Virus record (IMG/VR): IMGVR_UViG_3300029266_000670
Location: 1-64,000 of that record
Source of the DNA: a virus
Strand: one strand, 5' to 3'
Length of the DNA stretch: 64,000 bases
Notes under the pieces: generated by a model
The model's database searches: none
What the model saw: the letters and a program-made list of their open reading frames with translations, nothing else
Told to the model about the DNA's origin: nothing
Part shown: positions 2,228 through 63,074 of the stretch, piece after piece
Layout: every line of letters starts with the position of its first letter
Position numbering within the stretch: the first letter of the stretch is position 1
Made by a program: the position numbers and the translations under genes

Positions 2228-3270
2228 AGGGATAAACTCTCCATATAAAGATCCTTTATCATAGTTTTCATTTTATCTTTATCTGCAACTTCTTCCATTC
2301 CGTCAATTTCACTATTGATAAGGGACACAGTGTCCTGTGCAAGATCAACGATTTCTTCTTTAGTCCAGTTATTATCTTCAATATCTTCTACGATTGTAAG
2401 TTTAGAAACTCCTGCATCGTACAATTTATCCATATAACGATCAAAACTATAAGCATGTTTCTTACATTCGACAAACACCTTAACGTACGAATCTTTCAAA
2501 TGGTTATAATCATCCGACTCCACATCGATTGGACCATCTGAATCGTTATAGTTCATAGTGTGAAACATCTTAAATGGATTTTCTATAAACTCAACTTCTC
2601 GGGTTTCTGTATCTAAAATATGAAACCCTTTAGACTCATCGAGATCTGCGAAAGTAATTTGATACTGGGTTCCTAAGTATGATATATTACCCTTTTCTTG
2701 TTTGCAATGAAAATGACCAGACAGAACCTTTTCATAACGCTGAAACAATGAAGGACTCATTCCACCTTGAAATCCAACACCCCTCATAACTTCATAGCCA
2801 TCTAGTTCTAGATGCCCTACTAGAATGGGAGCCGATGCTGTTTTTATAAACTCCACAGATTGATCATAATTACTTTTATTTACCCAAGGAAGTAAAGCAA
2901 TATCTAAACCCCCAAAGTTAACAACAGCAGGTTCTTCATATAATATCAAGTCATCAGAAAATAACTCTCTGATAGAGTTAACCATGTTCGTGTTTCTATA
3001 GTAAACATCATGATTACCAATAATACAATGAATAGAAATTCCAAGTTCTTTGACTCGATCAATAAACTTAGTTCTTACTTGATTCAACACGCTAAAATTA
3101 ACAAACTTGCGACGGTCCATAAGATCGCCTGCATGAATAATAGTTGTTATTTTATTTTTATCTAAGTACGGAAAAAGAATCTCATCAAAAAATTTCATGA
3201 AGTGATCAAGAAATAATTGAGAGTCTCCCCTAGCACCAAAATGCGTATCATTCAGAAGGCATATCTTCAT
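2224..3270 (-). CDS. 47: gp47, recombination endonuclease nuclease subunit (Mre11/SbcD-like)
   Basis: This is the metallophosphoesterase partner of gp46. At 348 aa it matches T4 gp47 (339). The phosphoesterase motifs are in order: NDTHFG near residue 7, GDLMDRR near 48, GNHD near 85, GHLELDG near 150 and GHFH near 186, supplying the two-metal site. The start at 3270 lies inside the 3' end of gene 55 (about 23 bp overlap), and the ribosome would initiate from an A/G-rich stretch coding the lysine-rich tail of gp55. Acting with gp46 it makes free 3' ends for UvsX/UvsY-type recombination. Confidence 0.97.
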   Translation of the reverse strand: MKICLLNDTHFGARGDSQLFLDHFMKFFDEILFPYLDKNKITTIIHAGDLMDRRKFVNFSVLNQVRTKFIDRVKELGISIHCIIGNHDVYYRNTNMVNSIRELFSDDLILYEEPAVVNFGGLDIALLPWVNKSNYDQSVEFIKTASAPILVGHLELDGYEVMRGVGFQGGMSPSLFQRYEKVLSGHFHCKQEKGNISYLGTQYQITFADLDESKGFHILDTETREVEFIENPFKMFHTMNYNDSDGPIDVESDDYNHLKDSYVKVFVECKKHAYSFDRYMDKLYDAGVSKLTIVEDIEDNNWTKEEIVDLAQDTVSLINSEIDGMEEVADKDKMKTMIKDLYMESLSL

Positions 3271-3799
3271 TTTTCTTCTTCTTCTTCTTAGCAGGAGTAA
3301 ACTTTTCTATGTCTGATGTACTAACTTCAAAATAATCAGCGTAGGCATTCTTGGAATCCTTCTTGGAATCCTTTTCAAAGTAGTTCTCCTTGAACCAACC
3401 CATAAAACTTCCATCGTCTGCCTGTTCCATTAGTTTATACTTAATGTAGTTCTGCTTTTTCTCCTTCTCTATTCTACGCAAGAACGCATAGTAAATCATT
3501 TGCGTAAAATATGAAAATGGATTAGTAGATTTTTCTGGATTGAAATTGTGTGCATACATTAGACAATTTTCAATACCATCTGCTATCATCTCGTCTCGGA
3601 AATGATAGTTTATAAAATTTGGTTTTCTTGATAGGTGTTCTGATATCTTAACAAAACACTCACCTATATATTCACCTATTGGTGGTCTGGGATCATCTAT
3701 ACTCGCCGCTTCAATAACTTTTAGTTTCCATTCGCACATAGCTTTGAAAAACTCTTTGTTATCGACGTAATGTTCAACTACTTTTTTTGTTTTCTTCAT
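3248..3799 (-). CDS. 55: gp55, late-transcription sigma factor
   Basis: This is the phage sigma factor that redirects host RNA polymerase to late promoters (TATAAATA-type boxes, seen in this window). At 183 aa it is nearly the T4 length (185). The central part (about residues 65-125) is a sigma-70 region-2-like helical block with NPFSYFTQMIYYAFLRRI, the most conserved gp55 segment. The C-terminus is a run of lysines. There is no Shine-Dalgarno sequence before the ATG at 3799. Instead a sigma70-like -10 hexamer ends 6 nt before it, so the mRNA may be leaderless. Its partner co-activator gp33 is at 56896-57114. Confidence 0.95.
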   Translation of the reverse strand: MKKTKKVVEHYVDNKEFFKAMCEWKLKVIEAASIDDPRPPIGEYIGECFVKISEHLSRKPNFINYHFRDEMIADGIENCLMYAHNFNPEKSTNPFSYFTQMIYYAFLRRIEKEKKQNYIKYKLMEQADDGSFMGWFKENYFEKDSKKDSKNAYADYFEVSTSDIEKFTPAKKKKKKNEDMPSE

Positions 3800-3805
3800 A
3801 GTGTA

Positions 3806-3833
3806 ATTATATCATTCATTTTTCAATTGTAAA
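3806..3833 (-). promoter_or_regulatory. Sigma70-like promoter of gene 55, predicted leaderless
   Basis: On the minus strand there is a -35 TTTACA (3828-3833), a 16-bp spacer and a perfect -10 TATAAT (3806-3811). Six bases separate the -10 from the ATG at 3799, so the expected +1 falls on the A of the start codon. The upstream gap 3834-3914 shows no other gene or clear terminator. Confidence 0.7.
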
Positions 3834-6053: not shown

Positions 6054-6515
6054 TTATGGATTGAAGGACTCTCCTAGCACCATAAGGTTTAATGGCTTCT
6101 TCGACACTTTTCCAGACCATTCTATAACCTTCACATTGTTTGAACTTAAAAAATCCAATGAAATTTTATCAGGTTCGTTTATCATATCTGTAAACTCTTT
6201 ATGATAAATCACAGTTTCGATACCACATTCTCGTATCATGATTGTGTCTAGTTTTGATGGGGGTAGTGGGGTGTATAAATCCAAACCATAACATGATATT
6301 CCACGCAATGCTGACTTGAATATAATGCTTTGTATGGACGAGAAAGAATACCATTCATTCTCATAAACATTGGTTGATGCCAGTAGAATACCAGATTCTC
6401 TGCTTACAAGTATTGATGATACTTGGGTATTGCATCTAGAGTGTGCTGCTGCATGTATATAGGCATGTTTAAGGTATGCAGCGTGTATAAGATCTTTGCT
6501 ATACACCACTGACAA
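6054..6515 (-). CDS. Degenerate cytidine/dCMP deaminase-fold protein lacking zinc ligands
   Basis: The layout is that of a dCMP/cytidine deaminase: an N-terminal helix with SRCNTQVSSILVSRESG (like the TCxRRQVGAVIV strand), then a helix, then LDLYTPLPPSKL...IRECGIETVIY (like LYVTxxPCxxCAxxIIxxGIxxVVY). At the HAE site it reads SIQ, and the PCxxC site reads PPSKL, so the zinc-binding His and both Cys and the catalytic Glu are missing. It should be catalytically dead. No ATG is available: I favour TTG at 6513-6515 with GGAG five bases upstream; GTG at 6534-6536 or 6507-6509 are alternatives. It overlaps the end of uvsY and precedes uvsW, so it may have a structural or regulatory role there; that is inference. 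Confidence 0.65.
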   Translation of the reverse strand: MSVVYSKDLIHAAYLKHAYIHAAAHSRCNTQVSSILVSRESGILLASTNVYENEWYSFSSIQSIIFKSALRGISCYGLDLYTPLPPSKLDTIMIRECGIETVIYHKEFTDMINEPDKISLDFLSSNNVKVIEWSGKVSKKPLNLMVLGESFNP

Positions 6516-6933
6516 ATTTTCTCCAATCGATAGCACTTCGGATATTCCATTGTCGATTGTTTACAATTTTAACTACGGACTCTAGGTAGTTTACTTTTTC
6601 TTTTGTGAATGATACTTTCATTCTGAGTATTGACAGATCAGTATCTGCTTCTAGATACTTGTCTATATCTACCTTTAGAATGTTAAGTTGAAATGGCTCC
6701 CAATTATACTTCTTGAGAGTACCCTCGTCGATCTTACCTGTGTAGTATTCCCATTTAATTTTGTATAACTTCTTATACTCTTCTTCTATCTTGACGAAGA
6801 TAAGCCTCTCATCATGGTAGAGGTTTAGGTATTTGTTATGCAGTTGTGGGGTTTTTACAGATTCGATATCGAGTTCGGTGTCGTCGATGATCATATCTTC
6901 TTCGACCATTGATTTTAGTTCGTGTAGATTCAT
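6499..6933 (-). CDS. uvsY: UvsY, recombination mediator
   Basis: UvsY loads the UvsX recombinase onto gp32-coated single-stranded DNA. The 144 aa match T4 UvsY in size (137) and pattern: the N-terminal ELKSMVEEDMIIDDTEL, the LHNKYLNLYHDERL helix and a conserved YYTGK motif near residue 63. It lies just upstream of the deaminase-like gene and uvsW, the usual T4-like clustering. The ATG at 6931-6933 has no Shine-Dalgarno sequence; a sigma70-like promoter ends 6 nt before it, so translation is probably from a leaderless transcript. Confidence 0.9.
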   Translation of the reverse strand: MNLHELKSMVEEDMIIDDTELDIESVKTPQLHNKYLNLYHDERLIFVKIEEEYKKLYKIKWEYYTGKIDEGTLKKYNWEPFQLNILKVDIDKYLEADTDLSILRMKVSFTKEKVNYLESVVKIVNNRQWNIRSAIDWRKFVSGV

Positions 6934-6939
6934 ACCAAT

Positions 6940-6968
6940 AGTCTACATCATAAATGAGCCTTTGTCAA
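6940..6968 (-). promoter_or_regulatory. Sigma70-like promoter of uvsY, predicted leaderless
   Basis: A perfect -35 TTGACA (6963-6968) overlaps the 3' end of the upstream tail gene. A 17-bp spacer and a -10 TAGACT (6940-6945, 4 of 6 matches) follow. The ATG at 6933 comes after exactly 6 nt, the same geometry as at gene 55 and at 63039. Confidence 0.6.
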
Positions 6969-7507
6969 GCATCAATTCTTTCAATTGAGTATGTTGTAAA
7001 TCCAAATGTAGTTGTTGCAATTATTGGTTCTGGATCAGATACTGCACTATTGAAATCAATTCCAGAAAGTGATTTAGGAAAACAATCTCGGAAGTTGGCG
7101 ACTAACTTCCCTTTCATTGCACTATTGGTTATTACTAAAGTGGCATCAGATAGGTGCTGATCTTGAGTTTCAAATTCAGCAAAATCTTCGGCATTAGAAG
7201 TTGATCTCATCCAGTTGTAAATTTCTAACCAGTTCTTCATGGTTTCATCTACCACGAAGGATAGTGATAGATCTTCAAATCTAAAAACGCCTGGAAGGTT
7301 TATTGGAGAAAACATAGTATTTTGCTCAACGTTTCCTACCGACACCGATGGTATGTTTGCCGATTGACAAAAATACGTTACAGTAGGTATTCTTTGCATC
7401 GTGAATTTGAATTCGGTGATTAAGAGAGGATTTGTATTCTCTGGTTGTCTATCAAGACGACTCTCTTTCATCTGATTCAAACCACTGATATTAATATTAT
7501 TGGCCAT
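6965..7507 (-). CDS. Tail-tube-fold protein beside gp23 (position of gp3 in marine T4-like phages)
   Basis: The 180-aa protein has the pattern of the gp19/gp54 tail-tube superfamily: FKFTMQRIPTVTYFCQSANIPS near the N-terminus, then FRFEDLSLSFVVDETMKNWLEIYNWMR and a C-terminal strand. It is distinct from the main tube protein at 13005-13613. In marine T4-like genomes the gene between 23 and uvsY is usually called gp3, the tail completion protein, so it may be the tail terminator or a minor tube ring; I cannot see a direct match to T4 gp3. It has its own perfect late promoter 17 nt upstream and is insulated from gene 23 by a terminator. Confidence 0.75.
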   Translation of the reverse strand: MANNINISGLNQMKESRLDRQPENTNPLLITEFKFTMQRIPTVTYFCQSANIPSVSVGNVEQNTMFSPINLPGVFRFEDLSLSFVVDETMKNWLEIYNWMRSTSNAEDFAEFETQDQHLSDATLVITNSAMKGKLVANFRDCFPKSLSGIDFNSAVSDPEPIIATTTFGFTTYSIERIDA

Positions 7508-7524: not shown

Positions 7525-7532
7525 TATTTATA
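7525..7532 (-). promoter_or_regulatory. Late promoter box TATAAATA
   Basis: A perfect T4-type late box on the minus strand, 17 nt before the ATG at 7507. It starts immediately downstream of the gene 23 terminator U-tract, so termination and re-initiation are packed into about 45 bp. Confidence 0.85.
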
Positions 7533-62562: not shown

Positions 62563-62761
62563 TAAGTTTCTCCACCTTAAGGGCATCTTCTCTTTTTGCA
62601 AGAAGATCGAGCCAGTGTTGCTTTTCATTATCACATTGTCTAATTCGAATCTCTGCTATATCTCTAAGGTGACTCGAAGTTAGATCATAACAAGAATGCT
62701 GTCTTACAAATATGAGTTCTTTACCATCCCAAGTTACTTCGGACATCCATTCTGTATTCAT
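62555..62761 (-). CDS. 68-aa unknown soluble protein
   Basis: The start overlaps the preceding stop (ATGA) and the end overlaps the membrane gene, so it is one of three coupled small genes. The N-terminal half is beta-like (WMSEVTWDGKELIFVRQHSCYDL) and the C-terminal half is a charged helix (HLRDIAEIRIRQCDNEKQHWLDLLAKREDALKVEK). Function is not known. Confidence 0.6.
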   Translation of the reverse strand: MNTEWMSEVTWDGKELIFVRQHSCYDLTSSHLRDIAEIRIRQCDNEKQHWLDLLAKREDALKVEKLNV

Positions 62762-63039
62762 TTGTGGTTCTTCCTAAACTGATTATTGTTATCATTTGCG
62801 TCCGCCGCGGCATCTTGTGCATACCACTCGGCGTAAATAATTCCTGCTTCATCTAGGCGAGTTGCCCCTTCAGGAGAGAAGGTTGCTAACTTCTCAACTT
62901 CTTCTTGTCCTTCTTTTGAGATCCACGCATCAAATTCGTAAGTAAATCGAGCAAGATCATTCTTACCCATAATCTTACCAGTGATAAAGCAGATGTCTTC
63001 TTTGAAGTCTATCCAATTTAGATTTTTATTTTTTTCCAT
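62758..63039 (-). CDS. 93-aa unknown acidic protein, first gene of the small-gene operon
   Basis: The frame extends upstream to 63123, but the promoter -10 hexamer lies at 63046-63051, so the longer start would be upstream of transcription. The ATG at 63037-63039 sits exactly 6 nt after TATAAT and would be the first base of a leaderless mRNA; the ATG at 63045 abuts the -10. The protein (MEKNKNLNWIDFKEDICFITGKIMGKNDLARFTYEFDAWI...) is acidic and soluble, ending with an Asp/Asn-rich tail. No family recognised. Confidence 0.65.
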   Translation of the reverse strand: MEKNKNLNWIDFKEDICFITGKIMGKNDLARFTYEFDAWISKEGQEEVEKLATFSPEGATRLDEAGIIYAEWYAQDAAADANDNNNQFRKNHK

Positions 63040-63045
63040 GCTCAT

Positions 63046-63074
63046 ATTATATAAACCTTCAAGAGAACTGTCAA
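63046..63074 (-). promoter_or_regulatory. Consensus sigma70 promoter, predicted leaderless
   Basis: Perfect TTGACA (63069-63074), 17-bp spacer and perfect TATAAT (63046-63051). The ATG at 63039 follows after 6 nt, matching the uvsY and 55 promoters. The -35 overlaps the 3' end of the upstream gene. Confidence 0.85.

Follow-up and report, generated by a model that had tools for sequence, protein, structure and literature searches.

The window analyzed here is a stretch of 64,000 bases from the 68,805-base IMG/VR record IMGVR_UViG_3300029266_000670. It shows the T4-like gene order terminase-sheath-tube-portal-capsid-gp3-like-uvsY-uvsW-gp55-gp47-gp46, which matches that of Pelagibacter phage HTVC008M, and part of the gene assignments was based on this synteny. 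The terminase is approximately 60% identical to cyanophage terminases. A sigma-70-like promoter precedes each of uvsY, gene 55, and ORF 63039 (Table 1). The distance d is given as the number of nucleotides between the -10 hexamer (or the late element TATAAATA) and the start codon, and a promoter set against the ATG is called flush.

Table 1. Promoter elements and genes in the window (d, nucleotides from the -10 hexamer to the start codon).
Feature	Position	Strand	Remarks
-35 TTGACA, uvsY promoter	6963..6968	-	TTGA invariant in 13 aligned relatives
Alternative -10 TATGAT, uvsY	6947..6952	-	d = 13, weaker, not conserved in relatives
-10 TAGACT, uvsY promoter	6940..6945	-	TATAAT in relative L084, TAAACT in relative L004
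Spacer ATTGGT, -10 to ATG of uvsY	6934..6939	-	six bases; predicted untranscribed
uvsY, 144 aa, predicted leaderless	6499..6933	-	phrog_231, E = 1.2e-41
Late promoter TATAAATA	7525..7532	-	17 nt before ATG 7507, with GGAG
-35-like TTTACA, gp55 promoter	3828..3833	-	TTTACA-N16-TATAAT
-10 TATAAT (extended TGA-TATAAT), gp55 promoter	3806..3811	-	6 nt from ATG
Gene 55, late sigma factor, 183 aa, predicted leaderless	3248..3799	-	phrog_234, E = 1.1e-55
-35 TTGACA, ORF 63039	63069..63074	-	N17 to -10
-10 TATAAT, ORF 63039	63046..63051	-	6 nt from ATG 63039
ORF 63039 product, 93 aa, no assigned family	62758..63039	-	homologs start near same ATG

The uvsY promoter reads TTGACA-N17-TAGACT-ATTGGT-ATG on the minus strand (6931–6968), with the ATG at 6933–6931 and no Shine–Dalgarno (SD) sequence in the six bases before it. 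Since the -10 hexamer occupies positions -12 to -7, the A at 6933 would be +1, which predicts a leaderless mRNA. The TGA at 6967–6965 within the -35 element also terminates the upstream gp3-like/tail-tube-fold gene, and the promoter therefore fills the whole 31-bp gap between the two genes. The upstream gene lies on the same strand and has a late promoter of its own (TATAAATA at 7532); accompanied by GGAG, this promoter is an example of the usual SD-led arrangement, next to the flush uvsY in one genome. As a -10, TAGACT is weak, and TTGATG-N17-TATGAT (d = 13), which overlaps this promoter, scored 8.0 vs 8.5 for the d = 6 reading. The close relatives L004 and L084 favor d = 6, and L084 has a perfect version, TTGACA-N17-TATAAT-ATTGTT-ATG.

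The MotA box of T4 middle promoters lies 11–13 bp upstream of the -10. A MotA-like TGCTTGA was found upstream of uvsY at 6971–6965, but 19 bp separate it from the -10 and neither L004 nor L084 has it, and a T4 middle promoter was thus rejected for this gene. According to a study of cyanomyoviruses, motA is lacking in these phages (PMC2984593). The T4 late promoter TATAAATA is absent upstream of uvsY, gp55, and ORF 63039, and exact matches to it occur elsewhere in the record.

The gp55 promoter has the layout TTTACA-N16-TATAAT-TACACT-ATG, with the ATG at 3799 and no SD in the six-base spacer. Among 44 distinct upstream regions of gp55 relatives, 24 were flush (12 at d = 6, 9 at d = 7, and 3 at d = 9), including that of every close relative; the others that have a promoter mostly carry an SD-led leader. 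The two subgroups at d = 7 or 9 imply one to three leader bases. ORF 63039 has the layout TTGACA-N17-TATAAT-ATGAGC-ATG, again with no SD in the spacer, and a second ATG, in frame with the ORF, directly abuts the TATAAT. Its flush layout is not conserved, as the homologs are SD-led or have no promoter.

The earlier note had described a 6-nt spacing without a ribosome site at uvsY, the same spacing at gp55 and ORF 63039, and an agreement among the three unlikely by chance. The geometries, read directly from the sequence, are exactly as claimed, and the spacing does exceed chance. Of 28 sigma-70-like sites with T ≥ 8 in the 68.8-kb record, three have an ATG at d = 6 (ORF ≥ 30 aa), compared to approximately 0.2 such ATGs per other offset. 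Called gene starts at the same threshold numbered three at d = 6 and at most one at every other offset. When the genome scan was compared with shuffled sequence for ORFs of at least 90 aa, three cases were observed and none in 100 Markov shuffles. The evidence from this record alone is modest, and the comparative data are much stronger.

Upstream regions were inspected for approximately 80 uvsY homologs, and the TTGAC/TATAAT promoter was kept in most of them. In an alignment of 13 upstream regions, the TTGA (-35), TA-A-T (-10), and ATG columns were invariant. The distances were bimodal over distinct upstream regions, at 6–8 (22 cases) or at least 16 (about 30), and those of 9–15 were unoccupied. 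Flush upstream regions (d = 6–8) had no SD once the promoter letters were discounted, and all members of the other group had an SD-like motif. In the sister phages L005–L015, approximately 11 extra bases, including GGAGG, lie between the -10 and the ATG of uvsY; the leaderless form and the short SD-bearing leader may interconvert by gain or loss of approximately 11 nt. On a tree of 59 UvsY proteins, the leaderless label needs eight changes, and the starred branches force six. In the distance classes above, L031 and L076 (d = 8) were reassigned to the leaderless group, and L069 and L072 to the upstream regions lacking a promoter. The uvsY of the window groups with L004 and L084, both leaderless.

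The enrichment at d = 6 was also observed across whole genomes of marine T4-like phages. The exact pattern occurred 21 times in the records of 24 relatives, and the reversed control never occurred. Ten contigs of relatives together with HTVC008M gave d = 6 27 times vs approximately 4.4 per other offset. With five more cultured phages added, 16 other marine T4-like records gave an ATG at d = 6 in 32 cases vs 7.6 (P = 4e-11), although many survey counts contain homologous promoters, so that the rows are not fully independent and the P values are optimistic. When start codons at d = 6 were compared in these 16 records (ORF ≥ 40), TTG, CTG, ATA, and ATT showed no excess and GTG a slight one (6 vs 1.8). 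The enrichment is thus almost exclusive to ATG. The flush sigma-70 genes included uvsY, gp55, gp47-like SbcD, RNase H, endonuclease V, phrog_624, and phrog_11903, and the set varies between phages. The annotated start coincided exactly with the flush start for HTVC008M endonuclease V and for three checked P-SSM4 genes, including PTOX. No excess at d = 6 was found in T4, Syn9, S-PM2, or S-SCSM2R, and phage Melnitz showed its peak at d = 7, not 6. Phage-encoded ribosomal protein S21 was considered as a partner in leaderless translation and was rejected, as HTVC008M and Melnitz were the only two of 18 records that had it, which gives no correlation.

Transcription initiators typically follow the pattern Y(-1)R(+1). 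A pyrimidine was found at -1 in 58 of 74 flush starts (78%) vs 948 of 1,988 other starts (48%; P = 1.6e-7, an optimistic value because the rows are not fully independent). This bias is expected if the A of the ATG is the transcription start.

The T4-type late promoter TATAAATA had its own peak at d = 5, with 15 non-redundant cases and five more at d = 4, followed by a second hump at 15–20; control words gave no peak at d = 5. An ATG at d = 5 was found 12 times vs 2.3 (P = 5e-6), with little or no excess for other codons. In the open-complex structure of gp55, the contacted adenines are at -12, -9, and -8 (PMC7892883). TATAAATA would therefore span -13 to -6, so that d = 5 places +1 at the A of the ATG. 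The two promoter classes differ in their -10-to-start distance, and thus both peak where the ATG would be the transcription start. T4 showed neither the d = 6 (sigma-70) nor the d = 5 (late) peak. HTVC008M has five late promoters of the form TATAAATA-N5-ATG (L201 6280, 7562, 31132, 49760, and 18916), which precede genes for a 2OG-Fe oxygenase, CsgF, baseplate proteins, and a DNA end protector, and all five flush starts are the annotated CDS starts.

It is therefore highly probable, in our judgment, that the promoters of uvsY, gp55, and ORF 63039 are host sigma-70-type promoters that start transcription at the A of the start codon and yield leaderless mRNAs, and that marine T4-like phages have this arrangement as a recurring alternative, at early and late promoters, that interconverts with the SD leader. 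Leaderless mRNAs are very likely the products of flush promoters in general, as predicted from their geometry. They probably constitute a standing second initiation mode in marine T4-like phages, in both the sigma-70 early and the gp55 late programme, with core genes such as uvsY toggling via an approximately 11-bp change. The placement of these promoters relative to the start codons is a computed result. As for the exact 5′ end and the mode of initiation, we infer that host RNA polymerase with sigma-70, or with gp55 for late genes, would start at the A of the AUG, and that ribosomes would initiate on the 5′-terminal AUG and not through an SD. Any regulatory benefit is a matter of speculation: late RNA reading through uvsY without an SD may tie UvsY synthesis to the gene's own promoter.

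The reason for the existence of this layout is a further question. We give an even chance to a near-neutral by-product of genome compaction, compatible with the leaderless explanation, in which leader loss is tolerated as the hosts translate 5′-AUG mRNAs. The short intergenic gaps, the -35 element overlapping the upstream stop codon, and the repeated switching point in this direction, whereas the long conservation of the layout within clades, such as the close gp55 relatives, and the gap where short SD-less leaders would fall suggest selection for two workable forms. It is unlikely that most UvsY is made from longer read-through transcripts, with initiation at an SD-less start codon and a flush promoter that is real but of little weight. 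The position of uvsY close behind a late-promoter gene is consistent with this, but if read-through sufficed, divergent relatives would not be expected to conserve the hexamers and their exact spacing, nor leadered relatives to retain an SD positioned for a short leader.

The earlier note had further proposed a dedicated class of leaderless early or middle mRNAs. Its leaderless part is well supported, but the dedicated class does not hold, as the layout extends to late genes and its members change: flush starts also occur at gp55-type late promoters, uvsY flips at least six times, and the flush genes differ by phage. A regulon of this kind, with mRNAs translated selectively during a single infection stage, is accordingly quite improbable; the sigma-70 flush genes listed above, phrog_11903 apart, would fit it, but non-structural genes would be expected to carry sigma-70 promoters in any case, and late structural genes are flush too. 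Coincidence of three equal spacings in AT-rich DNA has next to no probability and is refuted by the comparative counts, for although the record holds only three sites, one with a weak -10, the shuffles and the reversed pattern gave none and two promoter classes peak at their specific +1.

The leaderless mRNA known from phage lambda is that of cI. The predicted mRNAs resemble it as phage transcripts that would begin at the A of the AUG, but lambda, whose leaderless mRNA is cited in PMC3160421, offers a single gene in a temperate phage, and many genes of T4-like phages with evolutionary switching are concerned here. In bacteria, leaderless genes of the TANNNT type are an established phenomenon, and the motif precedes the start by approximately 12 bp (Zheng et al. 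2011, PMC3160421). The promoters described here likewise have the first T of the -10 12 nt before the ATG, a sigma-70 consensus, and no SD; however, the bacterial cases come from cellular genomes (Actinobacteria, Deinococcus-Thermus, and others), and those here from T4-like phages and also from a phage-specific late promoter. The related cyanomyoviruses S-PM2 and Syn9 have the same promoter classes, early sigma-70 and late NATAAATA, but the excerpted text of that account does not discuss the distance to the start codon or leaderless output (PMC2984593). In T4, a promoter-bearing region, the uvsY promoter/origin oriF, also lies right upstream of uvsY, but it has no flush promoter, unlike the window. 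One paper describes transcripts of phages as often leaderless (PMC5312081). Although such mRNAs are familiar in themselves, no report was found in the open-licence literature searched of this layout recurring in T4-like marine phages, least of all at gp55-dependent late promoters. If confirmed, the leaderless and SD-led uvsY forms would provide natural paired variants for testing when leaderless initiation is favored, and the finding would bear on gene expression by phages of small-genome ocean bacteria and help to annotate start codons and promoters more accurately in abundant marine phages.

Several further promoter arrangements were observed. Melnitz (MZ577097; L344–L351) has approximately eight near-identical early promoters with a TTTGTT-N4-6-AACA dyad within the 17-bp spacer (e.g., record 6198, 32277, 33499, 38992, 66590, 73149, and 136591), and the dyad suggests an operator or a promoter family specific to this phage. 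Outside the window, on the minus strand at record position 65348 (L002 ~13349), a strong TTGACA-N16-TATAAT-N6 is followed by ATG ACA AGT GAA TAA, a flush mini-ORF of four codons. A phrog_624-like protein (resemblance by eye) encoded on the minus strand at record 67046–67630 (L002 15047–15631) is not flush, and the phrog_624-like protein is flush-promoted in G002 and G009.
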